NCBI GenBank assembly: GCA_036784855.1
Contig: JAZDSV010000009.1
Location: forward strand, 105,001-169,000
Source of the DNA: Aphelidium insulamus
Lineage: Eukaryota; Aphelidiomycota; Aphelidea; Aphelidiaceae
Reading direction: 5' to 3'
DNA: 64,000 nucleotides
The notes beneath the pieces are model-generated. The model saw only the letters and a list, made by a program, of their open reading frames with translations, was not told the DNA's origin and searched no databases. Of this stretch, positions 9,241-56,425 are shown in pieces. Each line of letters begins with the position of its first letter. Within the stretch, counting starts at the first letter, position 1. The translations under genes were made by a program, and so were the position numbers.

Positions 9241-11144
9241 ATGCAGCCACAAAGAACCGTCATGCACTACTACACAGACTACGACGAGACACGCGGCGAT
9301 GAAGGTCACCAGATACACTCTGGCAAGGCTGTAGTCGCGCCCACAGTGCTCACTGTCGACACCGTGGCTTCCTGCTACTCTCCACGACAGAAGCACCAAG
9401 CGCCGATTATTGACGACTATCGAGCTATGCTGTGGACCTCGGCGTGGATTAGCGCGCAGCTGATTCTCTTTGCGTGTTTCGCCGTGCACTTTGCCACCAG
9501 CGATCGGTATCGCACGGTACGCATCACAATGGGGCCGGGGCTGCCGGTGGCTCGTGCGGCCGCCATGTCTCTGAACGTGAATTGCAGGTCGGTTGACATG
9601 TCAAGTTTCCATCGATTGCTAATCTCATATGTAGTTTGATATTGTTGACGGTGTGCATGAAATTGATGTCCAAGTTGCAGAGGTCGTCGAAGCAGCCATG
9701 CCTCCGTCGTCTTGGCTGTGTGGCTGGCCGTCTCATGGCGCTTCACAAGCACATTGCGCTGACAATAGCGGTACTAACTGTGGTGCACGTCTCAGCTCAT
9801 GCCAGCAATTTTACTCAGGTGTGTCGTCTAATGATAATCATTTTTGTTGAACATCAATAGTATGCCCAGTCGAGCGGCGGCAATTCATATACGGCTACTG
9901 TGCTTTGGTTCACATCGGGCCCGGGATGGACAGGCCAGATAGCACTTCTTTCGCTGGCTTTAATCATTTTTACTTCACTATGCCGGCGGGTTCGCAAGAG
10001 CAATTACAACGTCTTTTACTATACACACCATTTGTTCGCGGTGTTTTACGCTTCATTGCTGCTTCACGGCACATTTTGCATGATCAAACTGGATCCCGAG
10101 ACGCCCGGCGATATGTCAACATCTCAACAGTGTGCCGGTCCGTCGTTCTGGAAGTTTGCTGTAGCGCCCCTCGCACTATACGTCATCGACCGGATTCTTA
10201 GGGAAACGTCCTTGAGCGCCCAAATACGCCACGTCATCTGGCACCCGTCGAACGTACTGGAGGTGCAGTTTGATGTGGAGCAGTGGCGAAGGCGGAATGG
10301 CTGGTATCAGCTGGGCAATGGGTCAAATGTGAGGCTGAGGTGTCCTGAAATATCTCTTCTCGAATGGCATCCTTTCACCCTCTCTTCTGGTGCGAATACT
10401 TTTTTTCACTGCTGACAACTGCTGACAAAAGGTGTAGGTGCCAACTCGAAAATACTCTCGATACACATCAAAGTGTGCGGGGACTGGACTCGAGCATTGG
10501 CAAGGAAGTTTGGAGTGTTTAGCCACCTCGAACACTATTGCTACGGCTATCTGTCCCTATGTGATCGGGTACCCACAATTCATGTCGATGGACCGTACAT
10601 GGGCATGCTGAGCACACTGGGCACAGAGCCAGTTGCAGTGCTAATTGGCGGCGGAATTGGCGCCACACCCACCGCCTCAGTACTCAAGTCACTGTTGCTC
10701 GAACGGCTCTCACTCAAAGCCGACTTGACTGTGCGCATGCACCGCATCTACTTGGTGTGGGTCTGCGGTGACATTGACGCATTCAAGTGGCTGCAGGGAC
10801 AGCTGACGATGCTGGAGGAGATTGGAGTCGACTCGTTCAATCTGACGGTGATGCTATACTGGACGGCGAAACGAGCATCAATGGACACTGTGCATCGCAT
10901 CTATCTGGACCACGGGTCAAATCACGACACTCTGACTGGCCTCAGGTCATCCACACATTTCGGGCGGCCCAATTGGAAGCAGCTGTTCGGACAGGTCGTT
11001 GAGAGTAGCACCGATGGCGAGATGGTCGGAGTGTACACGTGCGGTCCCGAGTTGATGTGCCGCGATGTGGAGCGTGCCTGCCGTAGCGTGGACGTCGAGA
11101 GTGGTCGCCAGAGATTTGTTTGCCGTGCCGAGACATTTCATTGA
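9241..11144 (+). CDS. NADPH oxidase catalytic subunit (NOX/gp91phox type), copy A
   Basis: NOX enzymes move electrons from cytosolic NADPH through FAD and two haems to make superoxide across a membrane. Visible features in order: first TM (AWISAQLILFACFAVHF); GLPVARAAAMSLNVNC, then after an intron LILLTVCMKLMSKL; haem-ligand histidines in HKHIALTIAVLTVVHV and YYTHHLFAVFYASLLLHG; FAD motif HPFTLSSG; DGPYMGML; NADPH motif GGGIGATPTAS; and CGPELM near the end. No EF-hands or peroxidase domain are seen. The best start is ATG 9241, with introns near 9590-9635, 9817-9860 and 10390-10437. Copy B follows directly in tandem. A ferric reductase is the alternative, but the GLP.AR/NC/LILL block favours NOX. 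Confidence 0.88.
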
Positions 11145-11312
11145 TGTAATTAGCGTTTAGCCATGTACATAAAAATACAAGTGTATTCTTAGAAGTGCAT
11201 GTCAAACTCCATCATGCGATTTTCCATTGGCTGCAGAGATGCCATATGATTGGGCGAGACATGCTGCATTGTGGCACTGGAAAACGTGAAGCTACTACAT
11301 GATTTTGTCCGC

Positions 11313-13097
11313 ATGGCCAAAACAAGTATTGCGCACGTTTATGCACGTCCCAAATCAATCGATGGCGAATATCGAACAGCGGGGTGGACCACGGCTTGGA
11401 TATTCGCTCAACTGATCCTTTTTGTGTGCTTCAAAGCCCAGACAGATACCAGTGACCGATTTCATACCGCACGGTCAAGTATGGGGTCTGGACTCGCGAT
11501 TGCACGCGCTGCAGCCTTGTCACTCAATATAAATTGCAGGTCTGAATGATGTCTGAATATTGCTACTGCTGCTAGCCGCTAATGCCCGCCAAGTTTGATA
11601 TTACTTACGGCAAGCATAAAACTGCTGTCAAAATTTCAAAAGATCCTGACAAATGCACAACCACGCCTGGCACGTATCGGTTGTGTGACGGGACATATCA
11701 CAGCGCTGCACAGACATATGGCGTTGACAATAGTTGCGTTTACTGTTGTTCACGTCGTGGGACACATGTTCACCTTCACTGTCGTAAGTGCGCAGCAATG
11801 GGTTTTTGCAAAGTCATTAACAAATGAGCAGTATAGTGGTGGCAATGCTTCTGCAGCCGTTGATATGTGGTTCACATCTGGCCCTGGATGGACTGGCCAG
11901 GTGGCGCTGTTCTCACTGGCCTTAATTACACTCACCTCAATGTGGCGACGTGTTCGCAAAGCCAACTACAACGCCTTCTATTACACACACCATTTGTTTG
12001 CTGTGTTTTATGTGGCGTTACTGCTGCATGGCACTTTCTGCATGATCAAGCTGGACTCTGAGACACCCGGAGACTCGTCACAACAATGCGCTGGCCCGAC
12101 ATTCTGGAAGTTTGCCGTGGCTCCACTAGTTCTGTACACCATTGATAGACTGATACGGGAGAGCGCCACATGCGCAACAGTTCGTCGCGCCGTATGGCAC
12201 CCATCCAATGTGCTGGAATTGCAATTTGATGTGGAACAGTGGCGCCAGCGGAATGGCTGGTACCAACTAGGGTGTGGATCCAATGTCAGGTTGCGGTGTC
12301 CAGCCATATCGCCCTTTGAGTGGCATACTTTCACCCTCTCCTCGGGTATTTAATATTGATGTTTTCTTTATGTTATAATAATGCTGCCAGGTGCCAACTG
12401 CACGATTCTATCAGTACACATCAAAGTTTGCGGTGACTGGACTCGAGCATTGTCACGGAAGTTTGGTGTCTTTAGCCGCCTGGAGCAGTATAGCTACGGC
12501 AACCTGGCCATGTGCGGTACTGTACCCAAGATACAAGTAGATGGACCGTACCTCGGCATGATGAGTACGCTGGGCATGGAGCCTGTTGCCGTGCTGATCG
12601 GGGGTGGAATCGGCGCCACTCCCACTGCATCAGTGCTCAAGTCACTGTTGTCGGAGCGGCTTTCAGTCAAGGCTGACCTGTCTATGCGCGTGCGGCGCAT
12701 CTACCTGGTGTGGGTGTGCAGCGATGCCGACGCGTTCAAGTGGCTGCACGGACAATTGGCAATGTTGGAGGCGTTTGGAGTGGATCGCTTCAACTTGACA
12801 GTGATGCTGTACTGGACAGCAAAGCGGGCCTCAATGTACGACAGGCATCGCATACTTCTGGACAAAACTGCGCGATGTGACGCTGTGACTGGCCTCACTA
12901 CCACCACGCACTTTGGGCGGCCGCGGTGGAGGAAAATATTTGTACAAGTCGAAGAGAGCGCGGCAGACAATGAGGTGATCGGGGTGTACACGTGCGGGCC
13001 AAAGGCTTTGTGTCGCGACGTAGAGCGGGCTTGCCATGAACTGGATACAGAGAGCGGGCGACAGATATTTACGTGCCGGGCCGAGATTTATAACTAA
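11313..13097 (+). CDS. NADPH oxidase catalytic subunit, tandem copy B
   Basis: This is a close paralogue of the gene just upstream with the same exon plan. It keeps GLAIARAAALSLNINC, the intron, then LILLTASIKLLSKF; the haem histidines (HRHMALTIVAFTVVHVVGH, YYTHHLFAVFYVALLLHG); the FAD motif HTFTLSSG, where copy A has HPFTLSSG; DGPYLGMM; GGGIGATPTAS; and CGPKALC. ATG 11313 is the first in-frame ATG, giving a shorter N-terminal tail than copy A. Introns lie near 11537-11590, 11787-11830 and 12345-12390. Only about 170 bp separate the two copies. The change of Pro to Thr in the FAD motif may alter flavin binding. Both copies look intact. Confidence 0.87.
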
Positions 13098-13429: not shown

Positions 13430-16225
13430 ATGAAGCCGTGTTGCAATGTTGTGGCCGCCGCAGTGTTGACGACCATGTCCTGCTGGACGTCCCATCTACA
13501 GGCCGCCAGTTTGGGGCGGCGGTTGAACCCACTCGCCAAGCACTATGACCATCTGCGCATTGCTATAGTCACCGCCGAGACGCAGCAACAGTCGTTCGAG
13601 ACACTGGTCGCCTCAAACAAGACTCGCGACTGGGCCGCTCTGGACGGCGCCGATGATGGAGCTGCCGGACTGTTGTTGGACTCTGACGAGCCAGTTGAAT
13701 TGCTGCACCTCTCTCCCGACTATGCAGACCTATTCGTGCAGAACAAGAAGGACTGGGCGCTGTTTCTGCGATACGACTACGTGCACACCATCATTGAGGC
13801 CGATGGAAGTGCGTCCGACTTGCCGGTCTCAACAGTCGAACAGTCCATCCACTGGGTGAAAGTGGACCTCTTGCAGGTACAGTGAACTAATGTCTTTTTC
13901 TGATTATAGTGTTAAACATACACCTCACAGCGATACTTGTCCGAGTACGACTGGGTGTGCTGGTTGGATATGGACACAATTGTTGTAGATGCCAACATCC
14001 AGATCCAAGAGTATATCAAGGAGGCCACTCGCAGCCGGCCGCAGGCAGACCTGATTATTGAAGGATCGGAGAGTTATAAACAGATGGACGGCACAGCCAT
14101 CAAGGCCGGAGTAATTATTATGCGAAATTCGGCGTGGACCCAGCAGTTGCTCACCCGGCTCAAAGAGCTGCTTTCCAACAACGACTGGCAAGAAACTATT
14201 CGCGGGTCCATCCAGCGCGCTTCACCGTCTGCTTTGGACAACTCTCTGGTGTTTCTGCTTAATTCTGATCATTCGACAGATGCGCACTTGTATTTCACCA
14301 CACTGCAAGACCGATGGAATCAACGGCTCGTTTACATGCCCAAGATTGGTATTCTTCACTTTAGCGGGTGCACTGTGGGCGATTCGGTGTGCGTCAACAT
14401 ATTCAATGCTGCCATCGACCACATGCTGCTGAAAGATAAAATGTACGTCTACCGCGCCGCCCCATACATCCAGCACATCTACAACATTTTTGTCGGTATC
14501 TATGTGCTGTTTGCGTTGGACAGACTGTACCACATGTGCGGCCGCTTCATGTTTCCGGATCGGCGCAAGTCGCTTGTTCGGGTGTGTCGATATCTGCCAA
14601 CTATTAATTTGTCCTCGGCTTACTGATATTGTGTAGAAAGACTTTGGGAAGGACGATGCCAACTTTCCCATGGTTGTGGTGCAGCTGCCAATGTTTAACG
14701 AGATTTCTTGCTGCGAAACCATTATTGCTTGCAGTTGTAGGCTTGACTGGCCAGCCTCCAGATTATTCATCCAGGTAAATAATATTATACTGCTGTTGCT
14801 GTTTGATGATATTCATCGCAAGGTCGTGGACGATTCCACCAGCGAGGAAACGAAACAAGTCATCAACCAGCATGTCCAGAATTGGTCTCAACGGGGTGTC
14901 AATATCGAAGTCAGACGTCGTCCACATCGGTCCGGCTTCAAAGCTGGTGCCATGAACGAGGCCATGGACTACCTTCCGAAAGACACCGAGTACATTGCCA
15001 TTTTCGACGCCGATTTCTTGCCGGATCCATCGTTTTTGCGCAGTTCGGTTCCATACCTTGCTGCTCGACCTCAAAGCGCCTTTGTGCAGACTTGTTGGAT
15101 ATACACCAATGCGAAGGAGTCTCTGCTCACTCGGATGCAGGAAATATCGCTGAACTTTCACTTTTTGTGTGAACAAGAGGTTCGATTTCGCGCAGGACGA
15201 TTCTTCAACTTTAATGGTACCGCGGGAGTTTGGCGATTGAAAGCGCTTCAAGATGTCGGCGGCTGGCACACGGATACACTTGTCGAGGACATGGATCTGT
15301 CGCTGCGGGTGTATGCGAACGGTTGGGATTTCATATTTCTCCGCGATGTCAAGGTCTTGAACGAAATTCCGCCCACATTCGATGCGTACCGCGGACAGCA
15401 ACATCGATGGACCAGTGGACCGATGCAGGTGCTTAAAAAGGCCTTCCGAACAGTGTACATGTCGGAGAAACTATCATTTGTCGACAAGATATTTTGCCTT
15501 TGGTTCTTTTTGCGCAACTACGTCCACATCATCAACTTTATGTACTTTTTAATTCTCATTCCGCTCATGATTTGGTTCCCGCGAGTGGTTCTGTACGAGT
15601 GGGCCGTGATTTGGTTGCCGGCGGCGATCAGCATGTCGAACGTTGTCTTCACGCCCAATGAGTGGTTTCGTGTAATACCCTATGTGCTGTTTGAGAATGC
15701 AATGTGTCTCTACAAGGTATGCACCTTCCTTGTATCAGTCTGCCAAGTTCATCTCTATCGCAGACTGGCGCACTGATTTGCGGTGTGCTCAACATTGGCA
15801 AGGCTAAACAGTGGATCGTGACACCGAAATTTGCGCGCAAAGTTCTGTCCGGCAAGGCGTGCGATGAGAATGTAGATATCAAGGTAGCCACTACTCCGTC
15901 GGCGCCACTGGAACAAGTCGGAATAGGTGAAGCAGCTCATAAGCGATCACGCTGGGGCGCCATTTTGTATTTCTGTGCGGAAAAGTATCAAGCTCTAAAC
16001 GAATGGTTTACTGATCTGTGCATACGGCTCGCACTCTGGCTTTACACCACCGTCGTGGATTTCACATTCAAAATTCATCGACAAGAGGTGGCAATGTCGA
16101 TATTTCTGCTTGCGTGTGCGTATTGGGGGTTCCTGATGCGGCAACACGGTATCGCCTCATTTTCGCTACTGAACGCCTTGGCTTACTTTATCCTCGGCAT
16201 TGGTTGGATCGGTCGGTCTAAATAA
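13430..16225 (+). CDS. Fused glycosyltransferase: GT34 domain + CSLA/CSLC-type GT2 synthase
   Basis: The first half is a GT34 (MNN10/xylosyltransferase/galactosyltransferase) domain: LRIAIVTAE, RYDYVHTI, W.KVDLLQ, the metal-binding DYDWV-type motif with LDMDT near 13965, and ILHFSGC. Next come a TM segment (FVGIYVLFALDRLYHMCGRF) and, across a 55-nt phase-0 intron (14582-14636), a processive GT2: FPMVVVQLPMFNE, VDDSTSEE, DADFLPD, EDMDLSL and QQHRW. C-terminal membrane spans follow (FFLRNYVHIINFMYFLILIP, VAMSIFLLACAYWGF). The DRL...GRF segment before FPMV resembles the N-terminal TM of plant CSLC proteins, so the GT2 is complete only if joined. About 860 residues in five exons. Likely a Golgi enzyme making a substituted beta-glucan or mannan; the donor sugars are not known. 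The N-terminal start is uncertain. Confidence 0.88.
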
Positions 16226-16310: not shown

Positions 16311-17998
16311 TCACTTGTCAGCGTCTGGAATATCTTTGACGGACACAGCTAGCGCCTCCTTCAAGGATTTGTCAATGATTGCCACGGCCTCATCAATCTC
16401 GGCAGCAGTGATACAAAGAGGAGGCGCCTATAAAGTGTCACGCATTATAAAAATATTACAGTTTAAACACACATACCAGTCTGATGATGTTCTGGTGTGT
16501 GGGTTTGGCGAGCAGCCCGTTCTTCTTCATCAGCAGGCAAATATGCCACGCAGTCTTGTCCGATTTGCTCTCATCGATCACAATGGCGTTCATGAGTCCT
16601 TTGCCGCGCACTGTAGAAAAAAATGCATCAGCACATTGATGAATACATATTTGATAAAAAATGACTAACCGATCTGCACTAGCGGTGACTTGAGATTCCT
16701 GATGGCCTCGCGGAAACGTTCGCCTTGCACCATTGAGTTTTCGCACATGTTTTCATCTTTGAGCACTTGCAGTGCGGCAATTGCCACTGCACATCCAAGT
16801 GGATTTCCTCTACACAAATCAGTCGCAATCCAAAGCCGCATGGCCATACCCATAAGTGCTACCATGCTGGCCGGGATGTATGCATGTCATGATCTGAAAC
16901 TTAGTACCGTGTGAGATACATTCTGTTTTTTACCTCTTGACTAGAAAGTACGGCCGAGACGGGATATATTCCACCCGATAGCGCCTTGCCCAAGATGAGA
17001 ATATCGGCCTTAATGTTTTCGTAGTCGATTGCAAGCATTTTCCCTGTGCGGGCCAAACCAGACTGGATCTCATCGGCAATAAACAAGACATTGTACTTCT
17101 TGCAGAGCTCATAGCACTTTTTCAGATATCCATCATCTGGCACATATATGCCAGCCTCGCCCTGGATGGGCTCCACCAGGAAGCCGGCGACCTATACGCA
17201 TTAGGGATATGGCAGACGGTCAAGTAATCACAGCGCCATACATTTGGCCCGTGTGCCTTCAATGCACGCTCCAGCGCGCCAACATCGTTGTAATGGAGCA
17301 CATCACCGGTCTTGGGGCAGACTGGGCCGACTCCGGGTAAAAAGGGGCCGAAATTGGTTCGGCAATCCGGATCCGTGGACATTGATATCACACCGAGGGT
17401 ACGACCGTGAAAGTTGCCGGAGCAAGCCAGAACAATTGCCTTGTTCTCGGCCACTCCCTTCTTCATGTAGGCCCACTTGCGCGCCAATTTAATCGCCGTC
17501 TCCACGGCCTCGGCGCCCGTGTTCATTGGCAGAACCATGTCGTAACCAAAGTACTCGGTCACGTACTTGGCATACCGGCCAAACACATCGTTATAGAACG
17601 CGCGTGAGCTCAAATGAAGTGTCTGAGCCTGCTTGACGAGCGCATCGACGATCTTGGGATGGGAGTGTCCTGCGACACGGCGTCACAGGGGGCTCTTGGG
17701 GCAGAGGCACATTAACCTACCCTGGTTCACAGCACTGTAGGCCGACAAAAAGTCCATGTACTTGCGGCCCTCGGGATCCCAGACCTGGCGATATGAGACG
17801 CGATTTATATAGGTAGAAAATCATATCGCGACGCACGTGAATGCCCTGAGCGCGCGAAAACACAACCGGCAATGGGTGATAGCTGCACCAGTCATTCATA
17901 ACGATATCATAAAGAGTGCAATCTTACTTGTGCGCGCCAAATTCGTGCTCCAGGCCGATGACGGTCTGCGTGGTCATTGCTTGGCTTGCAGCTGCCAT
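16311..17998 (-). CDS. OAT: Ornithine aminotransferase (PLP enzyme)
   Basis: This enzyme transfers the delta-amino group of ornithine to 2-oxoglutarate, giving glutamate semialdehyde. The spliced protein (ATG 17998) begins [20 protein letters not shown] and joins to GAHNYHPLPVV, then [20 protein letters not shown]. It keeps [37 protein letters not shown], the PLP aspartate in [13 protein letters not shown], and the catalytic lysine in LGKALSGG. The C-terminal part has [13 protein letters not shown] and RGKGLMNAI. Introns are short, at 16430-16476, 16612-16670, 16810-16870, 16905-16935, 17192-17245, 17670-17720, 17788-17838 and 17910-17930, roughly. The N-terminus lacks an obvious arginine-rich mitochondrial presequence, so it may be cytosolic. 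Confidence 0.94.
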
Positions 17999-18653: not shown

Positions 18654-21208
18654 ATGAAGGTCTGGCCTCAAGTGTCGCCGATACGCCTGCTCGCCCTAGT
18701 GGCTGCGGTGCTGTGCGTGGGCCATGTAGTGGCGGAACAGCAGCATGCATTCACGGCTGAAAACACGGCCGCTGACACTACGGATGATGTACCGCACACG
18801 GCCAACGCGGAAAAATTCGAGTTCCAGGCCGAAGTGAACCGAATGATGAAGCTGATCATCCACTCGCTCTACAAGTCCAAGGAGATCTTTCTGCGTGAAC
18901 TGGTGTCCAACGCCTCCGACGCCCTGGACAAGATCCGTTTCAAGTCGCTGAGCAATCCGGAGCTGCTGGCCGCGGCGCCCACGCTCAACATCACGGTGCG
19001 CGCGGACCCCGTCAAGAAGCAGATCATTATCACGGACACGGGCATCGGTATGACCAAGAAGGATTTGATCAAGAATCTGGGCACACTGGCCAAGTCTGGC
19101 ACCGCCGATTTCCTGCAAGCTCTCGAATCCCAGTCCGCCGACTCGAACCTTATTGGACAGTTTGGTGTTGGATTCTACAGCGGTATGTTTATCACATAGC
19201 AGTGTGTGTTACTCTCTAGCTCGTAAAATCTTATACAATACAGCATTCTTGGTCGCCGACACTGTGACCGTGGTGAGCAAGCACAATGACGACAAGCAGT
19301 ACGTGTGGGAGTCGCATGCCGAGAGTGATTTCTCGGTGGAGGAGGATCCACGTGGAAACACCCTCGGCCGTGGCACACAAATTATTCTGCACCTGAAGCC
19401 GGAGGACGAGGAGTTCCTAATCGAGTCGCAGCTGGAAGACATCATTCGCAAGTACTCCGAGTTCATCAACTTCCCCATCTATCTGCAGACCAACCAGACC
19501 GTCACTGAGGAGGTGCCGCTGTCGGATGAAGAGCTGGAAGCGGCTGCTGCCGAGAAGAAAAAGAAGAAGGCTGATTCGAAGAAGGCAAAGGCGGACGAGG
19601 AGAAGACGGCCGAAGATGACCTCGAAGAAAAGGAGACGAAAGATGCCGACGACGAGGAAAAGTTGGAGATTGAACAGGTGGATGAAGAGAGTGAAAAGGA
19701 GGACGACACGCCCAAGACGAAGAAAGTGGAGAAGCACGTCCTGGACTGGGAGCTGATGAACCCGCACAAACCGATCTGGACCCGCTCGGCCAGCAACATT
19801 ACGGAGAAAGAGTACCACGACTTCTACAAGGCATTTTCGCGCGATTCCACCGACCCGATGGCCTACTCACATTTTCGCGCGGAGGGCGATGTCGAGTTCC
19901 GCTCCATTCTATACATCCCCGCCAAAGCCGATGCGAACCAGCTGCAGAGCCAGGAGGCGCACATTCGCAGCATCAAGTTGTTTGTGCGCCGTGTCTTCAT
20001 CACCGACGAGCTGCTCGACTTCATTCCCAAGTACCTGGGCTTTCTGAAGGGTCTGGTGGACTCGGATGATCTGCCGTTGAATGTGTCGCGCGAGACGCTG
20101 CAGCAGCACCGCCTGCTCAAGATGATCCGACGCAAAGTTATCCGCAAGGCGCTCGATCTGATCAAGTCGCTGGCGGAGGACGAGGAAAAGTACGAAGAGT
20201 TCCTCAAGCAGTACTCCACCAACCTGAAATTGGGTGTCATTGAGGACGTCAAGAACCGCAAGAAGCTGATGAAGCTGCTGCGTTTCAGCTCGTCGCACTC
20301 GCCCGACAAGCGCACCAGTCTGGAGGCGTACGTGTCGCGCATGAAGAAGAAGCAGAAGCAGATCTACTTCCTCACCGGCCCCTCCATCGAGGAGATCAAG
20401 ACGTCGCCGTTTGTGGAGCTGGTAGAGGCGCGCGGCTACGAGGTGCTCTACATGGACGAGCCGATCGACGAGTACGTGCTGCAGAGCGTGCGCGACTTTG
20501 ATCGCCACGCATTCCAGAATGTGGCCAAGGACGGTGTCAAGTTTGGCGACGAGTCTGCCGCCGTCAAGGAGAAGAACGAGGCACTCGCCGAGAAGTTCAA
20601 ACCCCTGGCCGACTACCTGACCACACTGCTGTCCAAGTGGGTGGACAAGGTGGTGGTGTCGTCCCGTCTGACCACGGCACCGTCCGCGCTGGTGGCGTCG
20701 CAGCACGGCTGGTCCGGCAACATGGAGCGTCTGATGACGTCGCAGGCGCTGGGCAAGAACAATGACCCGATGCGCGACTACATGGCCACCATGAAGAAGA
20801 AGTTTGAGATCAATCCGCGACACCCGCTGATCGAGGCCATGCTGGAGAAAGTGGAGGCCAGTCAGTTGGATGCGGTGGACGAGGTGGCACGACTGCTATA
20901 CGAGGTCACTCTGCTGCGGTCTGGCTACTCGGTCAAGGACTCGGTGGAGTTTGGCAATCTGGTTGAGCGTGTCATTCGCCTCAATCTTGGCGTGGACACT
21001 GAGGCGCAGGCAAGTATTGTCACTAATGCAATAATGTCTTCCACATTATTATAGTTTATCACTAACCCGACCCGCGCAGGCCACTCTGGACGACATTGAG
21101 CAGGCAGAGGAAAAGGATCCAAACTCGGGCGAGGCAGATGATGACGTGGACGAGGACATTCCCGAGATGAAGCTGGACGAGAGCGACATGGAGCACGACG
21201 AGCTGTAG
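18654..21208 (+). CDS. HSP90B1: GRP94/endoplasmin, ER-lumen HSP90 ending in HDEL
   Basis: GRP94 is the HSP90 chaperone of the ER lumen. The protein starts with a signal peptide ([20 protein letters not shown]), then [20 protein letters not shown]. It has the GHKL ATPase motifs [17 protein letters not shown], and [10 protein letters not shown] completed across a 60-nt intron at about 19184-19243. A long acidic/lysine-rich charged linker ([19 protein letters not shown]) is typical of GRP94. The middle and C-terminal domains follow ([37 protein letters not shown]). After the last intron (about 21010-21080) the acidic tail ends EHDEL, so the ER retrieval signal is HDEL, as in plants and yeasts. 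The gene is strongly GC-rich at third positions compared with its neighbours, suggesting high expression. Confidence 0.97.
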
Positions 21209-30192: not shown

Positions 30193-30749
30193 CACGCCGA
30201 TTAATGTACTGTTGCGTAAAACAGCGTCTGTATAATACAACACTGTTGTAAATGTGCGTGCGATTAATTCTCATACGCAAGTCCGCGCATGTATGGATAT
30301 GGGCACGCCTGTAGATATATTTTAGACATATATAATATAAAGACTTTAGATATATCTCAATTGGAGTGTGGCGATAAAGCGCACACCTCATGCATTACAG
30401 ACGATTTCTGAGCGTGTATTATCTAGCAGTTAATCGGGTTGGTAAATGTGTCTGTGTGGACTCGCTGAATAGTCTTCGGTATTGGATCTTTGCCACGGGG
30501 AACCATTTGCTTCTATCTCACCGAATGGAATTGTGCTTGCATATTCACTTTTAGCTTCATAACCAACTCAAGATGTAGTAAGGGGATGTGCTATGTGCCT
30601 ATATAAAGAACATTGCAGAGTTTATGCGCACGAGTGGCCTTGAAGGCTTTTGGAATTAACTTATAATTATCTTCAGGTATCAATGAGTTGATTACGTTAC
30701 GCTCTCGTCGAATAAGCGCGTCTTGATTGACCCATACACAAGCCTGATA
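30193..30749. other. Divergent promoter region of OPLAH and GPN2
   Basis: No coding or RNA gene signature is seen. The stretch is AT-rich around 30300-30360. The two start codons are divergent, so both promoters should lie here. Confidence 0.45.
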
Positions 30750-31889
30750 ATGCCGACAATATTCGGCCAGCTGGTGGTTGGACCGCCCGGCAGCGGCAAG
30801 TCCACGTACTGCCGTGCCATGTACCGCTACCTGGACCGTCTGGGCCGGCACCCCGTCCTCGTCAACCTGGACCCGGGCGCGTCCGACATTAGAACTGATG
30901 GCAGTACTGCCAGCGATGCCGATGATGCCGCCGTCCAGCGCACAGTCTGCCTGCGGGACCTCATCACGCTGGAGGACGCGATGCGCGAGTGCTCACTGGG
31001 TCCCAATGGCGGCCTGCTGTACTGCATGGACTTTTTGCTGTGCAATGTGGCGTGGCTGCGTGCCCGGCTCGAAGATTGTGTGGCGCGCGCCGCCTCCCAG
31101 CACGGCACCGTGCCCTACCTGCTGCTGGACTGCCCGGGCCAGGTGGAACTCTTCACACAACACGATGCCCTGCGCACCGTTATCACACGTCTAATGCGGC
31201 CAGATGATGCCGATGTTGAAGGTATTGACGGCGTTGGTAAAAGCAGAAAGTCAACATTGGACCTGCGGCTGTGCGCGGTGCAGCTGGTGGACGCGGCGCA
31301 CTGCGTGAACGCCACCAGATACGTGTCGGTGTTGCTGTGTGCACTGCGCACCATGCTCTACTTTGAGCTGCCGCACGTCAACGTGCTGAGCAAGATTGAC
31401 CTGATGGAGTCGCGCAGTGGTGGCGGTGGCGGTAGTTCTGCCGCGCCATTCAACCTCGAGTTCTACACGGAGGTGGGCGATCTGTCATACCTCGCCGACC
31501 AGGTGGACCAGGAGGACGTGCTGTTCTCGCAAAAGTTCAAGCGGCTCACACGCGCCCTGTGCGACCTGGTGGAGGAGTTTGGCATGGTGCACTTTCATCC
31601 GCTGTGCGTGGATGATGCGGCCACCCTCGACACCGTGTTGCGCATGGTGGACAGGGCGGGCGGGCATGTGTTTGCCGGCCTGACTGACGACGATGAGTCC
31701 GCTGCTGTTGTACCCACTGATGACACTGATGGCACTGGTGGTGGAGTATCAGTGCGCACGCGGCACCTGGAAATGCTGAGCGGTGTGGCCATGCGCGCCG
31801 AGTCAGAGGTGGCCAGTGTGCGCGACGTGCAAGAGCTTTATATGGGCGATGTGTTGCTGGATGAGCTGCTGCCCGGCGGGGCTGAATAG
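30750..31889 (+). CDS. GPN2: GPN-loop GTPase 2
   Basis: GPN GTPases act in the assembly and nuclear import of RNA polymerase II. From ATG 30750 the protein starts MPTIFGQLVVGPPGSGKSTY with the P-loop at residues 10-17. It has the family motif GPNGGLLYCMDFL, a G3 region LLLDCPGQVELFT, AVQLVDAAHCVNATRYVSVL, the G4-like LSKIDLM, and FYTEVGDLSYLADQ. The ISVLL/LPHVNVLSK wording fits GPN2 better than GPN1 or GPN3. Two insertions are lineage-specific: an acidic DGSTASDADDAAVQ near residue 50 and GIDGVGKSRKS after the G3 region. About 379 residues, with no visible intron. Confidence 0.92.
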   Translation: MPTIFGQLVVGPPGSGKSTYCRAMYRYLDRLGRHPVLVNLDPGASDIRTDGSTASDADDAAVQRTVCLRDLITLEDAMRECSLGPNGGLLYCMDFLLCNVAWLRARLEDCVARAASQHGTVPYLLLDCPGQVELFTQHDALRTVITRLMRPDDADVEGIDGVGKSRKSTLDLRLCAVQLVDAAHCVNATRYVSVLLCALRTMLYFELPHVNVLSKIDLMESRSGGGGGSSAAPFNLEFYTEVGDLSYLADQVDQEDVLFSQKFKRLTRALCDLVEEFGMVHFHPLCVDDAATLDTVLRMVDRAGGHVFAGLTDDDESAAVVPTDDTDGTGGGVSVRTRHLEMLSGVAMRAESEVASVRDVQELYMGDVLLDELLPGGAE

Positions 31890-35507: not shown

Positions 35508-38500
35508 TTATGCACTCTTCTTGGGAGAAGTGATGACATAGCCGGATGCAGCTTTACTCACAGTTGCAATTTGAACCTGGTCTGCCTCTGCTGCCGTGAT
35601 TGAAATAGATTTTTTGCCAGCAGTTAGTGTGAAGCTGCACATGTTAAAGTTATTACACTACATACGCATGTAAGTGACGATGCTGTACCTCTCGGTGCAG
35701 GTGGTGGCCAGAGCTTTAGTGGATTGGCGACGGTAAGCCACGCACAAGTTCGCCACAAACTCCACCAGTTGAGCACAGTTTTGTGCGCAGTACAGCGTGT
35801 CCCCATCCTTGGCATTGTTGCGATGCACTGCCACATATCCGTCATTGAATGGTGTGAATGTTAGGCCGGTCAGTTCTGACAAGGCCACCGTGTCCTTGAC
35901 AGTAAATGATTTATCTTCCATAACAACCAGGGACTTGTCAGTAACAGCCAGTACACGTGGTGCTTTGGCGGCAATGTCGGAACGGTGGTGCTTGTCCACG
36001 CGGATCGCACATCGGATTTCCATGCTTGCGTGTTGCTTGCTAAACTTGGCCAGATCCTTGGCATCCGACAAATTCACCCCTTTGAATGGAATAGGCACGC
36101 TAAATCGTGAACAACTCGTAGCAATAGAAACTATCATGTACATCATGTACTGTACCTGCTGGCATAGGTTGATTTGCGGTAGCATGCTTCTGATGCGGCC
36201 AGCTTGACTTCTAACATCGCTTTTCTGTCTGGTGTGATCTTGGCCCTGTACGAGCGAGCCATGTGGGCACAGTAGAGTTTCTTGATAGCGGCGCTGGCGC
36301 CCTTTGTTGTCTTGGTCGCTGCAGGCCACTCCACTTTACGCCAGTGAGGACCCGCGGCCTGGACGGCGGATTTTAATGCTGTGTTTAGAAACTCTCGTCG
36401 AAGCCTGGTCCTGTACCAGCGCTGGATTATCGGTGCAGCTCGTTTCGGCTGTTTGCGCACAAGCACCTTGTACCGTCGTCGTGCCTGTTAATCGTAAGTA
36501 GAGTACATCTGAGATATATCATGGTTAGTATGTACCAGGAAGCCTCGAATGAGTTTGGATACTCGCAGCACACAAGCCATATCCTTCTTAAACCGTTTTC
36601 TTTGCTATAAATATATAAATATCAGTGATATTCAGACGATCTCCATGTACTTACTGCATGCATGCGCCAGGTTGCTTCAATAAGAATGGTCTTCTCCTTC
36701 AGTTTGAGGAACTTTCGACGCTCCGCAAACGCCAGCCAGGTCGCGCGTATGCTGTCCACCAGTAAATGCTTCTTTTCCTCGCGACGGTCCTCCAGAAAGA
36801 ACACTGACGACGGTTTCTTGATGAATACTTTGGTGGCACCGCATGCAAACTCTTCCGGTGTGAGGCCAGCGGCACGCATGATTTTTATGACTCCCTGGGC
36901 CGGGGTGCCGGTCCACTTTGGCCACGTCTCCGTAGACAACATCTTGAAGCGCTCAATGAACTTGCCGTAGCTCTGACGATAGCAGTAGCCCAGCTGGCGC
37001 ACGCGGATGTTCTCAATCAGACCCAGGTAGCGGCACTGGTGCAGCATGAGCGACGAGTCGAACTCTCCGGCCTTCTTGACGCTGTTGGGTTTCATGCAGC
37101 GGATATAGTGCGGCTCCTTGGCCAGCAGATTTGCCATCAATTGCTGCATCGAGGCTCGGAAATGCGTGGCCAGTGTGTCTGGCCGCTTGAAGTCGGCATC
37201 GGCCGCGCTCTCCGGGAACATCTCCACCAGGTCCTTGTTGCTGGACGCGTTCATGGCGTGCAGCATGTCCTTGAACAGGGCGTCGGTATTCTTCTCGATG
37301 AAACCGTCCGCGGAGTAGGTCACATTCCCGGCGTAGTGCTTCAGTCGGAAACAGCTGGGGTCCAGTGTCTTGTCGGACTTGCTCTTCTCACGCGAGTCGT
37401 AGTGATTGTGCTTGATCACATTCTGGTTCAGTTTGTTCAAGAAGGTCATGTCGGTCACGTCACCAGGTCGGGCACACTCTTCATCCAGCAGCGCAATGAT
37501 ACCCTTGCCCTTCTGCATGGTGTTAATTATTACTAGCCAATAAAGGGAACACCATACCGTTTCAATCAAGTCCAGAATGACCACGTTGTTAAAGTAGTCA
37601 ATGTGCATCCAGGTGATTCCCTCCTTGGCATAGTCCTCTTGCTCTGACTTGAGAGTCAGTTCAATGAACAGCTGCTGCAATTTCTCGTTGCAGTAGTTGA
37701 TGCAGAACTGCTCAAAGCCGTTCTTCTGCATCACTTCGAAGCCGTAAATGTCCAGCACGCCGATCAGACTCAGTTTCTCCTTGCTTGTGCTGTTGATGGC
37801 GGCATTCAGCTTCTTTACGAGCCAGTTGAACAGGCGGCCATATAGTGTTTTGGCCAGTGCGTCGCGCGATGAGGCGGCCTATAATATTTATTATGTGTCT
37901 GTACAACAATGAATAATGTATACCTTTTCTGGCTCGAGCAAGACCTTGACATCGGCTGCTCCAACTTTTTTCACATCGCGCATGGTACGACTCGTTAGTG
38001 CAGCAGACAATGTGTCCACGCTCACTCCTAGCAGTTGGGCCGCATGCGCCACAGCTGTCCCACTTTTAATCACGGAGTAAGTAATCACTACTAGTTACCC
38101 TCAGTGGCCTTGCCAGAGTTAACAATACAGCCGGTACCCTCCTCCGGCTTTCTGAACGACACGTTACCCAAGTGAAGGATGGCCGCCACGACAGAGTTCA
38201 GAGTTTGCTGGTTATCCCGGCTGATGCCAATGCTAGTCATGGCTTTTTGCACGTGCTGGTAATCAAGCTTGTCATCTACTCCGGGAATTGCGTCCACTTT
38301 GCTCAGTGTCAGGTAGTAGTAGTCTTGCGGGTTGCCAGTCAAGTGCAGAGCGTCTACACGATTAGATTAAAATTCAATGACAACATTTAGCTGTACCTCG
38401 CAACTGTTGATCAGCACCACGAAGCAGTTGGTAAAACACATGAAAGTTGCGCTCTCCCTCTGACTGGTGCACCACGCGTGACTGTAATATGTATTATTGT

Positions 38501-49449: not shown

Positions 49450-50904
49450 CTAGAGAACCACGTCACAGAGCGCATTTAACTTTGGCGATACTTGCATGTT
49501 GGCTAAGCGCAGACACCAACGAAGATCCTGCAGATTCTGCCGCAGTTTGGCGGTGACTTTGCCGGTGAATGATTCGATCTTCTGCTTGAGTGAGAGCAGT
49601 GCACCGCCGCTTCGATACTCGTGGCACCACGCTACCGGTGCGGATGCACTCATTTGTTGCCGCAAAATTTTGTTAATTATCTCCTGGTCGCAGGGTGAAA
49701 ACGGTGTGACTGCAGCGACAGGGTCCGCAATAACCTCGGCCAGCTTTGCTCGCGCCAACCAATTTGCTCTGGGACCCGCGGAACTAGACACTCGCAACGA
49801 TGTTACACTGCGGCAGTATTCGAGATAGTCCCACTTGATGCCGGCATTTTGGTACTCTACAGCTATGCGTTCAAAATACTTGTAGTCTTCTTGTTCGACA
49901 ATCTTCATCATTAAAGGTCCCAGTACGTCCCTGAGTGCAGGATCCCAAATGATCGAACGTACTTTGAGGTTTCTGGTAGCGCTATGGCTCAATTGCGCGG
50001 CCTCGATAGACTTTTTAATCACAAAAGCCTTCATGTCGCCGCGTTCGCCATCAATGTACCGCCGAACAGCAGAGTGAAATTGATCGACACTCAACATGGG
50101 ATAAACGCCCAATACAGCACTTGCATAAAACTTGTGTGGCTCCATTAGCGGCTTAATTATCTCCAAGTACCGTTCCACTTGATATCTGCTGGAATATTCG
50201 ACCAATTTCTGCATCAGCTTGGATCCAGGTGACGCGGCCGCCGCAAGTAATTGACATGAATACCGAGTAAGCTGTATGCCAATACGCTTGAAAATCCCAG
50301 TCATCACGTGAAACTCGATAGCCAGCGGAGAAGCAGCAAACGCTTCATGGAACCATCGTGCCAGCACGGGGGCCACGGCATTGTGGATGCCCACGCTGGT
50401 GTAAAGGCGGAACACTTGATCGATGGCTTCAATCGCAATATCTATCCCACTGATGGTCGGTTCCAGACGAAGAAACCGCGGCTGAAAACGATACAGCTCA
50501 CTTTTGAGGCACTCTGTTACCGCCAATGGCAGCATCGATGTCAAATCCCTGGGCGTCCAGTCAAACACTATAGTGCCATCCACCGCATAATACGTGAGTT
50601 GGCTATTCATCAGCGAGCATGCGTTATCCAAGTGACCTGAATAGATTCTGCTACGAATGGATGTCATCGAGCCTGATGGCTGAATAGTGGCTGGCGACGT
50701 GACTCCACCAGCGGGGAAATCGACACTGGAAGGCGAGTTCCACGTGGGCCACGTGGAACTCGCCGAGACTCCACGTGACGTGGGGATGTATTCTGGAGCA
50801 CGGGCGTTCAGGTCGGAGGTGAATTCATCGATTGTTTCGCAAGCTCCACAGTGCAGCATGGCAAGTAGGGCCAAGATACCGCGGTTTGTCCAGCAAACAT
50901 GCAT
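49450..50904 (-). CDS. Secreted WTPR/PFSxCD family protein, member 1
   Basis: An intronless ORF of 484 codons. It opens with a signal peptide (MHVCWTNRGILALLAMLHCG). A Pro/Ser/Thr-rich stretch follows to about residue 85, then the family motif VFDWTPRDL near residues 113-121. The long middle is leucine-rich and probably all helical (VLARWFHEAF, KLMQKLVEYSSRYQVERYLE, HKFYASAVLGVYPMLSVDQF). The C-terminal signature is PFSPCDQEIINKIL, then WCHEYRSGGALLSLKQKIES and a final helix. The same order occurs in the three following minus-strand genes. I know no named domain that matches. A secreted, possibly host- or environment-facing role is inference. Confidence 0.85.
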   Translation of the reverse strand: MHVCWTNRGILALLAMLHCGACETIDEFTSDLNARAPEYIPTSRGVSASSTWPTWNSPSSVDFPAGGVTSPATIQPSGSMTSIRSRIYSGHLDNACSLMNSQLTYYAVDGTIVFDWTPRDLTSMLPLAVTECLKSELYRFQPRFLRLEPTISGIDIAIEAIDQVFRLYTSVGIHNAVAPVLARWFHEAFAASPLAIEFHVMTGIFKRIGIQLTRYSCQLLAAAASPGSKLMQKLVEYSSRYQVERYLEIIKPLMEPHKFYASAVLGVYPMLSVDQFHSAVRRYIDGERGDMKAFVIKKSIEAAQLSHSATRNLKVRSIIWDPALRDVLGPLMMKIVEQEDYKYFERIAVEYQNAGIKWDYLEYCRSVTSLRVSSSAGPRANWLARAKLAEVIADPVAAVTPFSPCDQEIINKILRQQMSASAPVAWCHEYRSGGALLSLKQKIESFTGKVTAKLRQNLQDLRWCLRLANMQVSPKLNALCDVVL

Positions 50905-51072
50905 GTCAGTTTATTAACGTTCAACGCGTAGTTAAAGAGTTAATGAAGACTTAATGATGTTCATCGTTGGGTTAATGTTTACAAGGAGTTGACCCCCTGA
51001 ACCCCTCGCTTCACATTAGCAAAAAGAAAGAAAATATCTCTTGTATATTATCGTCACGAATAAAGTCGTAAG

Positions 51073-52491
51073 CTAAGCCCCCGCAAGCAACATCAATTGC
51101 GGCGATACTGCCATTTTCGCGGCAACAAGACACCGTTTGAGGTCTTGAATTTTGATGAGCATTAGGCGATCAACTGTTCCGGCGAATGATTCAATTTTTT
51201 TCAGGTGCATCAACGCACCACCGGCATGATATTCACGGCACCATGGCGCATCTTTCTTGCTGCGATTCTTTACGGCATTGATAATTTCCTGGTCGCATGG
51301 GGAAAACGGGGTTTTAGAACCAACAGTATCCCACAACTGTTCCACATATTTCGCCTTTCGTGCACAGTCGTGGCCGTATTCCTTAATATCCATTCGCAAA
51401 CGGTACATGTCACGACAGATTGCAAGGTAATTTGGCTCAAACCCCATATGGTAGTAAGCATTGGCAATCTCCGAAAAAATTTTATAGCCTCGGACTTTGT
51501 TCGTTTCTTCAAATGCGAATTCGAAATCCACACTTAGCTCAGAGTGCGCTAGTATAGCATATAATTTACCCATTCGAGACTCGAACGTGGCACTATCCAG
51601 AGCAGCCATCAATGCTTTTCCAACAATAAACACTTTCAAATTTCCAGACTTGCCGTCAATGTAACTCAGCACTCTATCTTCAAACCGATCAACTTTGAGA
51701 TTCGGATCCAGGCCTAAAAATATGCTGGAATAGAAAGCGTAAGGTTCCAAGTGAGGTTGGATATAGCTCAGATATGCATCGAATTGATAGAAGCTAGCGT
51801 GTCTCGTAATGCCTTGCAACATTCTTTGGCGTTTATGGCAGTTTGCTGTGTTTGCTAGAACGTCGAACGAGTACTGGGTGAGAGGTGCGTCGTGCTGTGT
51901 AACCAGACGCCACAACTGCTGCGTCTGCGTGTGTGGCGAAGACTCTGAGTATATAGTGAAGAGCCACTTTGCTAGCTTTGGTGCCACCATGTTATCTTCA
52001 CCGACCGATGTAAAAAAGCGAAACGCACGTGCCACGGCGTCAAACGCCACGTCAAGGCCCAAATTCGTGTGACGAGATGCGTACAGAGAGCTCAGGTCGA
52101 GCGCATAGGGCAGGCCTACTTTGAGAGCCTCCAAAAGGCAATCAGCCAACAAAGCACCGACATTTTTGGTGATTCGCGGCGTCCATTCGAAAACTGGAAA
52201 GTTGTCCACCGCTGAGAACGTAAATTGATCCCATACCAAAGAGCAGTCAATCTGGCGCGTTGCAGCGCTAAACAATTCGGGCTGGTGCGCGCGCGGCGTG
52301 TTCACTTCCAAAAAGTTGCCTGCCGACGCACCGACAACAGCAGCAGTACGCAGTGTGCCAGTAGACGTTCCAGGGACGTACGGAGCAGCGTATGGGTTCA
52401 GACCAGAGCTAGGTGCCTTTTCTTGGCCAGGATGGCACTCTGCCGCGGATAGAGACACGATAATCACCGTAGCGGCTGCGAGAAAAATCAT
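51073..52491 (-). CDS. Secreted WTPR/PFSxCD family protein, member 2
   Basis: Intronless. ATG 52491 is preferred over the upstream ATG at 52536 because it begins a clean signal peptide (MIFLAAATVIIVSLSAAECH). The mature N-terminus holds LNPYAAPYVPG, shared with member 3 as LNPHAAPYQP. The family motif here is VFEWTPRITK near residues 100-110. Helical middle segments (AFYSSIFLGLDPNLKVDRFE) align with member 1. The C-terminus has PFSPCDQEIINAVK, WCREYHAGGALMHLKK and LKRCLVAAKM. About 472 residues. The coding sequence is AT-richer than the housekeeping genes. Confidence 0.85.
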   Translation of the reverse strand: MIFLAAATVIIVSLSAAECHPGQEKAPSSGLNPYAAPYVPGTSTGTLRTAAVVGASAGNFLEVNTPRAHQPELFSAATRQIDCSLVWDQFTFSAVDNFPVFEWTPRITKNVGALLADCLLEALKVGLPYALDLSSLYASRHTNLGLDVAFDAVARAFRFFTSVGEDNMVAPKLAKWLFTIYSESSPHTQTQQLWRLVTQHDAPLTQYSFDVLANTANCHKRQRMLQGITRHASFYQFDAYLSYIQPHLEPYAFYSSIFLGLDPNLKVDRFEDRVLSYIDGKSGNLKVFIVGKALMAALDSATFESRMGKLYAILAHSELSVDFEFAFEETNKVRGYKIFSEIANAYYHMGFEPNYLAICRDMYRLRMDIKEYGHDCARKAKYVEQLWDTVGSKTPFSPCDQEIINAVKNRSKKDAPWCREYHAGGALMHLKKIESFAGTVDRLMLIKIQDLKRCLVAAKMAVSPQLMLLAGA

Positions 52492-52559
52492 TTTCACTTT
52501 TTGACTCCCTGATAAAAAATCGTTTTCACTTTTCACCAGGGGTCTGAAGGCTTCATCGC

Positions 52560-52985
52560 ATTAAAAATTCCATAAGATAGAAATTTGGCGACATTCACTA
52601 GGTCATCATCTGGTCCCGAAGGCATTGACGTAACTGCAAGGTCTACCGCTGGAGAGCAAAGGTAATCTCTCCGGTAAACATTCAATTTTTCGCTTCAGCG
52701 CCGACAACGCCCCATCATTTCCATGCAACACACCACGACGCCCTTGGATGTACCGCACTTGAAGATATTCGGTTGATTACATCAAGGTCGCAAGCGGAAA
52801 ACGGTGTCACGTAGCCATCTGGATCTTCAAATTTCTCGTTTTTTTTTAGTAAACGAAAAGTAAACGCAGTAACAGAAATGTGCAGAAACGGTCGGCAAAA
52901 TTCTTTGTCCATGACGTTAACAAGTACGTGTAGCGAATAGTGCGTAAGAGGAACGACGCACTAATGGCTAGACGAAGGCTAGGAT
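52560..52985 (-). pseudogene. Relic of a secreted WTPR/PFSxCD family gene
   Basis: A minus-strand piece encodes DGYVTPFSACDLDVINRIS and ASWC, then a frame change to GNDGALSALKRKIECLPER. Before it comes a middle-domain scrap (SLHVLVNVMDK, like ALHLLVHSMGD of member 3). The N-terminus, signal peptide and WTPR motif are missing and much of the middle is deleted. It lies between members 2 and 3. Confidence 0.85.
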
Positions 52986-53056
52986 GTACTCAAGAAATTT
53001 TAGGAGGATAGGTTCTTTATTACCTTAACAAACTGAACATGATATGTGCCACGGAT

Positions 53057-54601
53057 TTAAAAAGGTCGAGTCCAAATCATTGCATCCGCGCTGGCAAGCC
53101 TCAAAAGATTGGACGTAATCTCTTTAGAAATTCCAGCATCCCACAAGCATTTCACCAAAAGCTGATAATATCGCGATTTTCCCGCAGACCCCAACTGATA
53201 TGAAGCAATTTTGCGTCGAAGATTTTGGAGTAGGCCACCATCCCGATACTCCAGACGCCATCCTTTCGTTACTTCCAATGACTGGTGCAATACGGTTTCC
53301 ACATTACTTTTTTTAGCAAATGAGTTGGAGATGCGCGCAACAACTTGATTTATCACCAAAAGATCGCATGTTGAGAACGGCTCAGAATAACCCGCAGGAT
53401 CAAACAACATTTCGGTGAATTCCAGTTTTTCATACACCATTTGTATCCCGAAGACTTGAGCATCAGAGAAGACGCAGTTACAAACGGCAAGATAATTAGC
53501 CTCAATAGATGATTGATGGAAAATGATTGCGACTTTCTTAAACCTGTTGTAAGTGGCACTTTGAAAAGTCCGCTTAAAAGCCATACTCACTGACAACGAT
53601 GATGGCCTCGTCAATAGCACGATTTTCAATTTTTCCGTCATACGTTTAGATTCCTTTTCGAAGATGATGTGAATTAACGCGTTTGACATGACATAGCCTT
53701 GTATAAATTCGTCTGATTCTTGGGCCATATGCTTTTGACTAATTTTAATCACTTGCTCTGCGCTTAAGGAAAAGGTTTGGCGGTCACAATAGTGGTACAT
53801 AACTCCCAATATTTTATCGTCGTTGTAGCTACTCGCGCAAGCAATTACATCACCAATAAACTTGAGATGTTCTTGTGACCAACCCTGATCAATAATGGCC
53901 AATACATCCCCCATCGAATGGACTAGCAGGTGCAGTGCATAACGGGACAATTTGTTGGGCTTCTTAACAAGATCGACTAATCGCGGCGGAATATTGAACC
54001 TTTTGCCTGCGTTGGATATCTCGAGAAGCCATCGAAGCAACACCGGAGCACTATGACTGCATTCATGAATGCTGGTATGTTGAAAAAGCTGGCAAATGAT
54101 ATCAAAGACTGGATCCAAGTAGCGCTGCGGATGAAGGTATTGAACCGCGTTTCCAATGTGCAACTTTCGAGGACGAGCCTGAAGCGACAGCTCCTTCAGA
54201 CATTTGTCCATTACGTATATCTCGTTAACATCGCGATAATATCTTGGCGTCCAGTCGAAAAGCATGTAATCGCCGGCCGAAAAGAAGGTAAATTGTGCCT
54301 TCATTCCTTGGCAGATATCGGGGATCATCTGCCCAAAATCTTTCAGCGGTATCAACGGTGCACCATTAATGTTGTTCAGATAGCCAGCGTGCATTATATG
54401 TGCCCCAGCATGCGCATTCACCACGTCCACGCGTGCATCGTTCATCGGTACGTTGGCATTTGCAGCGGGCTGATATGGTGCGGCATGTGGATTCAAGCGC
54501 TTCAAAAAGACATCATTGGATTCGTTCGGGTTCGGTTGACAGTTCGCGGAGAAGAAACCATTTCCCAGAGCCACAACAAAGCAGCCCCACGACACGCGCA
54601 T
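53057..54601 (-). CDS. Secreted WTPR/PFSxCD family protein, member 3
   Basis: Intronless, 514 codons from ATG 54601. The signal peptide is MRVSWGCFVVALGNGFFSAN. Next is LNPHAAPYQPAAN, then FFSAGDYMLFDWTPRYYRD. The middle is helical (PVLLRWLLEISNA, SRYALHLLVHSMGDVLA), aligning with the other members. The C-terminal signature is PFSTCDLLVINQVV. The usual WC is replaced by WR in KGWRLEYRDGGLLQNLRRKI, so the second conserved cysteine is missing in this member. It ends with a helix and ADAMIWTRPF. Confidence 0.85.
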   Translation of the reverse strand: MRVSWGCFVVALGNGFFSANCQPNPNESNDVFLKRLNPHAAPYQPAANANVPMNDARVDVVNAHAGAHIMHAGYLNNINGAPLIPLKDFGQMIPDICQGMKAQFTFFSAGDYMLFDWTPRYYRDVNEIYVMDKCLKELSLQARPRKLHIGNAVQYLHPQRYLDPVFDIICQLFQHTSIHECSHSAPVLLRWLLEISNAGKRFNIPPRLVDLVKKPNKLSRYALHLLVHSMGDVLAIIDQGWSQEHLKFIGDVIACASSYNDDKILGVMYHYCDRQTFSLSAEQVIKISQKHMAQESDEFIQGYVMSNALIHIIFEKESKRMTEKLKIVLLTRPSSLSVSMAFKRTFQSATYNRFKKVAIIFHQSSIEANYLAVCNCVFSDAQVFGIQMVYEKLEFTEMLFDPAGYSEPFSTCDLLVINQVVARISNSFAKKSNVETVLHQSLEVTKGWRLEYRDGGLLQNLRRKIASYQLGSAGKSRYYQLLVKCLWDAGISKEITSNLLRLASADAMIWTRPF

Positions 54602-54812
54602 GTTTTATTTAATAATCGTTTCGAATCGAGATCTCGTGCATCTTGAAAATCGCGTGCAAATCTGCACACCACATGATTGGTTGAAAGTTTGAGGTGATTT
54701 TCTGCTGAAAAATGGCCACACAAATCTTCTATCGCACTTCTGATCTCATCACCGAATAATTCAACATTGTATTCACTGTTATCAACACAAAAGCATTTGT
54801 GTCGAAATATAT

Positions 54813-54858
54813 GCTTAAATCTAGCTACACAAATGCTTTCGTGTAGCTGAATTTAAGC
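54813..54858. repeat. Strong hairpin: 18-bp stem, 10-nt loop
   Basis: Arms 54813-54830 and 54841-54858 are inverted repeats with two mismatches. A second, overlapping inverted pair (54785-54802 with 54827-54844) allows an alternative fold. It lies just 3' of member 4 (stop at 54867) and upstream of member 3. It could be a 3'-end processing structure or the end of a small transposon. Confidence 0.8.
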
Positions 54859-54866
54859 TTCTATTT

Positions 54867-56347: not shown

Positions 56348-56425
56348 GGAGGCTATGTTTTTTTTTATGGTGAAAAGTGACGAGAAAAATTGACGACGAA
56401 AAGTCGGAAAATGGGAGAACAGCAA

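Follow-up and report, generated by a model that had tools for sequence, protein, structure and literature searches.

The DNA analysed here (the window) is a stretch of 64,000 nucleotides (nt) from contig JAZDSV010000009.1 of Aphelidium insulamus, a relative of the fungi that appears to be a parasite of algae. Predictions from the sequence confirm that one gene, at positions 13430-16225 of the forward strand, joins a glycosyltransferase (GT) of family GT34 to a complete GT2 of the CSLA/CSLC type. Its product is probably one membrane protein combining synthesis and decoration of a polysaccharide, for which we infer splicing, topology, processivity, coupling, sugars and site of action. In the predicted gene model, five exons join in frame to give 863 amino acids (aa), and the four predicted introns (54, 55, 48 and 47 nt) are all of the GT-AG type and in phase 0. 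The second of them, at 14582-14636, had been proposed as a 55-nt phase-0 intron in an earlier note on this DNA, and the model recovers it. The start codon is plausible, since an in-frame TGA lies immediately 5' of the ATG and the distance from the start to the GT34 domain is similar in relatives of the fused protein. In Pfam, the predicted protein matches PF05637 (GT34; GMA12/MNN10 family) at aa 96-242 (34.7 bits for a cut-off of 23, E 2e-8) and, between aa 379 and 669, the GT2 profiles PF13632 (aa 469-669, E 1e-23), PF13641 (aa 379-610, E 7e-20) and PF00535, all four being above their cut-offs. The motifs that the earlier note had listed (LDMDT and HFSGC for GT34; VDD, DAD, EDMD and QQHRW for GT2) were all found in it (Table 1).

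The join is independent of splicing, since the GT34 motifs and the N-terminal transmembrane (TM) helix of the GT2 lie within one open exon: read unspliced, exon 2 carries the DxD and HFSGC motifs and then, about 90 bases on, the helix APYIQHIYNIFVGIYVLFALDRLYH. All eight GT34 modules that reach the junction (those of the window protein, P0001-P0004 and P0121-P0123) enter the same helix, which ends in DR. This helix belongs to the GT2, as the two columns are kept in standalone GT2s: among green, plant and environmental proteins (113 aligned, 97 of them with a letter at these columns), D346 is D in 76/97 and R347 is R in 77/97. In 79 bacterial GT2s, H (62) and R (56) predominate at these positions. 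The N-terminal TM of the GT2 is indeed supplied by the GT34-bearing exon, as the earlier note had it, but the claim that this start is specifically CSLC-like is not supported by the tree and the approximately unbiased (AU) test presented below.

Proteins matching PF05637 together with PF13641 or PF13632, which had been suggested as a check, number four (P0001-P0004) among the best 120 of 452 protein-database matches at E<=0.001; they put the join beyond chance and, with the shared exon 2 and both Pfam matches, bear out the idea of a single GT34-GT2 gene. The best named match among the listed proteins is from an aphelid (P0001, MP228_006247 of Amoeboaphelidium protococcarum, 898 aa, 51% identity over 99%), and the other three are environmental. 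P0001, annotated only as a hypothetical protein, has the same architecture, with a longer low-confidence loop ahead of the last helices than the window protein. Five more proteins with the GT34 module were found, of which P0121-P0123 enter the junction helix and the other two end before it. In P0002, GT34 and GT2 share one open reading frame (ORF) that continues for 12 residues past the site of intron 4, as would be expected without splicing, and P0005, a GT2-only piece, leaves the alignment at the same intron 4 residue, the inserts of 17 and 18 residues being intron-sized. From these protein sequences we infer that at least one relative has both domains in one uninterrupted genomic frame. The presence of the fusion in relatives makes an assembly or splicing artefact unlikely.

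Hydrophobicity at the N-terminus and the positive-inside distribution of charges favour a topology in which GT34 is lumenal and GT2 cytosolic. The window protein has a hydrophobic N-terminus (best 11-aa hydropathy 2.05, at aa 4-14), as have all seven relatives measured (best 11-aa means 1.7-2.9 over the whole set), and there are 4-7 K/R in the 25 residues after the junction helix against 0-3 in the 20 before it, with more after than before in 8/8 proteins. The signal peptide or anchor would send the GT34 domain into the lumen of the Golgi (or of the secretory pathway), and the junction helix would cross the membrane back to the cytosol. On the cytosolic face, the GT2 would extrude a chain with beta (probably 1,4) linkages through the TM bundle that it forms itself, as the bacterial cellulose synthase BcsA does; BcsA has no GT34 domain and shows 17% identity in the structural alignment. 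Tethered at the exit, the GT34 would add single alpha-linked side sugars, with xylose and galactose as the leading candidates, to the emerging chain, and the product may go into an aphelid wall or coat layer, such as that of the cyst.

The same families, with the labour split and topology proposed here, are found in plant xyloglucan synthesis, where CSLC4 (GT2) and XXT1/2/5 (GT34) form complexes (PMC6646851, PMC3283625). CSLC4 catalysis is placed in the cytosol and XXT1 and XXT5 in the lumen, an earlier pea study having argued for the lumen (PMC3283625), CSLC4 interacts with the XXTs (PMC6646851), and in Pichia the glucans made by CSLC4 are long in the presence of XXT1 and short in its absence (PMC8214268). 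The plant machinery, however, consists of separate proteins, whereas the fused protein is one polypeptide, and no grouping with CSLC (one row) was recovered for the fused GT2. Plant (galacto)mannan synthesis likewise uses these families, in the form of a CSLA and a GT34 galactosyltransferase, and CSLAs are expected to partner a GT34 (PMC6646851, PMC8214268). There too, the enzymes are separate proteins, and the fused GT2 does not group with CSLA. According to the title of a 2010 paper by Davis, CSLA9 reportedly has the orientation opposite to that of CSLC4. The algal-type relatives of CslA and CslC are, like the fused gene, single copy, and akin to both yet neither (PMC3091534). Two hydrophobic segments near the N-terminus, with DR conserved after the second, are present in P0008 and P0010, the two checked rows that show them. 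These algal-type GT2s form a separate clade and carry no GT34; the loop between their segments is about 40-46 residues long, and it is the equivalent loop that GT34 fills in the aphelid protein.

Within the genome (17,953,404 bases in 169 contigs), UDP-glucose 6-dehydrogenase (UGD, E 3e-29 to solved enzymes), UDP-xylose synthase (UXS, E 3e-70 to the solved UDP-glucuronic acid decarboxylase 1) and UDP-glucose 4-epimerase (GALE) are encoded, and GDP-mannose dehydratase and GDP-fucose synthase are present as fragment matches below full-length cut-offs. As donors, CSLAs use GDP-sugars and CSLCs UDP-Glc (PMC8214268). A xylosylated glucan and a galactosylated (gluco)mannan are both compatible with the GT34 fold and the genes for UDP-xylose and UDP-galactose supply, which decide for neither; the xyloglucan- or galactomannan-like product proposed in the earlier note is thereby a candidate.

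Catalysis by the GT34 is suggested by the DxD motif, retained in 10/10 modules compared, and by the predicted model of P0121, which has a full GT-A fold close to XXT1. PF05637 is matched at E<=0.01 by 9/9 members of the GT34-module set. The GT34 part was folded and searched alone because the structure alignment of the whole model covers mostly the GT2. The nearest solved fold is that of a beta-glucan side-chain transferase, few GT34 folds having been solved. Several observations weigh against a synthase that decorates its own product. With 18-21% identity to XXT1, the module is divergent; P0121 reaches only 21.7 bits for PF05637, below the cut-off of 23, and no GT34 beyond the fusion group came back from two protein searches that used the module as query and required shared 5-residue words. 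The structure models were built for relatives, the window protein not being the modelled sequence, and the N-terminal and junction segments of the latter show only moderate hydrophobicity (19-aa means 1.13 and 1.37). The sugar of the GT2 cannot be read from the tree, as it groups with neither CSLA nor CSLC, and UXS, UGD and GALE also supply many other glycans. Lastly, the His of HFSGC is present in 6/8 modules reaching the motif, the window protein included, and is replaced by Tyr in P0004 and Asp in P0123. This histidine belongs to HFxGC, the C-terminal motif of GT34.

That substitution and the high divergence of the module would suit a GT34 of little or no catalytic activity, tethered as a partner that serves as chaperone or scaffold or in trafficking or length control, with the GT2 alone polymerising. 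The invariant DxD, the XXT1-like fold of the P0121 model and the presence of both motifs in the window protein make this unlikely. It is also conceivable that both domains are active on unrelated products, with the GT34 decorating protein or lipid glycans, as the fungal Gma12/Mnn10 do, and the fusion merely co-localising them. PF05637 is the family of these very enzymes, and further GT34 genes lie on contigs C22 and C86. These were listed by an exon-wise PF05637 search of the genome that did not list the fused gene, probably because intron 1 splits the domain, which the whole protein does match. Against such a role, which we consider quite improbable, stand the retention of the fusion and of the conserved join helix across divergent relatives, and the nearest solved fold. 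Synthesis and decoration of one glycan is the reading that we prefer.

The GT2 was placed with trees of 60, 42 and 52 rows, which are chosen subsets of sequences; P0118, P0120 and P0126 formed long branches in the first tree and are absent from the subsequent two. The 32 eukaryotic and environmental rows split from the 20 bacterial rows with a support of 100/100, and the fused GT2s fall on the side of CSLA, CSLC and the green algae. The AU test rejects their grouping with CSLC (p 1.1e-7, for a single CSLC row) and with CSLA (p 3.8e-5, for three CSLA rows). CSLA, CSLC and most green-algal rows form a clade that does not include the fused GT2s. A 100/99 branch divides the fused clade from most green rows; in the rooted tree, the chlorophyte rows Monoraphidium and Tetrabaena branch below it (92/89), so that it is not outside everything green. 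Six environmental standalone CSLA/C-like GT2s (P0006, P0007, P0009, P0011, P0014 and P0039) may be sister to the fused GT2s. The support is 96 in the Shimodaira-Hasegawa-like approximate likelihood ratio test (SH-aLRT) of a quick tree, then 89/76, and down to 88/47 with bacteria (P0009 excluded), and this relationship is not claimed. The environmental P0126 (981 aa) shows another odd combination, GT2 with PF00332 in precomputed domains; it has no GT34, and the last profile search with the GT34 module also gave it, at 7% coverage.

The two chlorophyte rows, and the fact that the closest named standalone relatives among the listed matches are green algae and land plants, raise the question whether the gene is a contaminant, or was recently acquired, from the algae on which the parasite feeds. 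Such a source is very improbable, given that one named aphelid and three environmental proteins share the fusion, that the 100/99 branch separates it from most green rows, that the contig continues past the window and that green and red algae are said to lack GT34 wholly or for the most part (PMC3797821). An ancient transfer of the GT2 is possible. Least credible is the misjoining of two adjacent genes, in which the GT34 gene would end near 14626 and the GT2 gene would have an upstream exon of its own: the unspliced exon-2 frame does run into a stop at 14624-14626, but the GT2 N-terminal helix is inside the GT34 exon, relatives have both domains in single predicted proteins, and the GT2 block 3' of intron 2 has no Met before aa 378.

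Two other origins were rejected. Scans of viral contigs with P0006, P0001 and P0121 found no relative there, and a prokaryotic origin of the fusion is at odds with the at most 241 residues ahead of the GT2 motif in all 79 bacterial loci with a readable GT2 ORF (80 loci compared, of at least 561 confirmed), against about 380 in the window protein. As for a second copy in the genome, three exons of the fused gene were all that came back for the GT2 protein query, and the GT34 query found only the fused gene (2 candidates scored for each). PF13632 matches eight places in the genome, of which the seven others were not returned by the GT2 protein query. The GT2 matches at G000:C22:252883-253521 and G000:C53:202719-203465 lie in open frames of 1598 and 1719 aa, the second with a TAG inside the match, and are perhaps parts of multidomain synthases.

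The window has a G+C content of 51.9%. Just upstream of the fused gene, at 10416-13094 (+), two ferric-reductase/NADPH-oxidase-like NAD-binding ORFs flank a ferric-reductase membrane ORF, in an apparent tandem duplication, and directly downstream, at 16900-17700 (-), the ORFs are aminotransferase-like (ornithine aminotransferase type, judged from residues). Further away are an HSP90 (19069-21051, +), an ATP_bind_1 protein (30687-31886, +) and a myosin motor domain (36625-37878, -), and a tandem family of four adjacent ORFs (49453-56428, -; 436-515 aa from stop to stop), paralogues of 22-35% identity with no Pfam match.

Table 1 Predicted features of the fused GT34-GT2 gene, in window positions
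Feature	Position	Strand	Description	Source
Exon 1	13430..13876	+	aa 1-149: ATG, N-terminal hydrophobic segment (signal peptide or signal anchor), start of GT34	
GT34 domain (PF05637)	13715..14209	+	aa 96-242, split by intron 1	
Intron 1 (predicted)	13877..13930	+	54 nt, GT-AG, phase 0	gene model
Exon 2	13931..14581	+	aa 150-366: remaining GT34 (DxD, HFSGC) and GT2 N-terminal TM helix, single open exon	
GT34 DxD motif LDMDT	13964..13978	+	aa 161-165	
GT34 C-terminal motif HFSGC	14357..14371	+	aa 292-296	
Junction helix APYIQHIYNIFVGIYVLFALDRLYHMCGRFMFPDR	14459..14563	+	aa 326-360, GT2 N-terminal TM	
Intron 2 (predicted)	14582..14636	+	55 nt, GT-AG, phase 0; separates junction helix from GT2 block	
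Exon 3	14637..14774	+	aa 367-412: start of GT2	
Intron 3 (predicted)	14775..14822	+	48 nt, phase 0	gene model
Exon 4	14823..15716	+	aa 413-710: GT2 core, four motifs, TM on C-terminal side (aa 646-664)	
GT2 VDD	14826-14834	+	aa 414	
GT2 DAD	15006-15014	+	aa 474	
GT2 EDMD	15285-15296	+	aa 567	
GT2 QQHRW	15396-15410	+	aa 604	
Intron 4 (predicted)	15717..15763	+	47 nt, phase 0	gene model
Exon 5	15764..16225	+	aa 711-863 and stop: C-terminal hydrophobic segments	

Both families are already known, and the joined protein is known by name only as hypothetical in Amoeboaphelidium. No report worded as a GT2-GT34 fusion was found in the openly available literature (most subscription papers being outside the search), and titles and abstract beginnings retrieved for aphelids with xyloglucan, for the Amoeboaphelidium cell wall and for GT34 with fusion or bifunctional terms name no such fusion. 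For the aphelid wall, chitin and beta-1,3-glucan synthases are named (PMC6299283, section 7), and, for A. protococcarum, GT2 genes assigned to chitin and unspecified mannosyl-, galactosyl- and glucosyltransferases that rise during infection (PMC8657485, section 13); the fused protein is not named in the excerpts of the aphelid wall texts PMC6299283, PMC8657485 and PMC11767097.

A natural fusion of this kind makes the coupling between GT2 and GT34 explicit and fixes the stoichiometry and orientation of the two enzymes, providing a one-gene system for asking whether a side-chain enzyme modifies the chain during its exit from the synthase. A further prediction is that a lineage sister to the Fungi has a substituted beta-glycan. 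We tentatively suggest that aphelids, near the root of the Fungi, may make a hemicellulose-like, alpha-xylosylated or alpha-galactosylated beta-1,4-glycan with a single synthase-decorator whose GT2 lineage is apart from CSLA and CSLC. Substituted-glycan synthesis would then have arisen independently or be ancestral, and substitution would be coupled to extrusion by the fusion itself.
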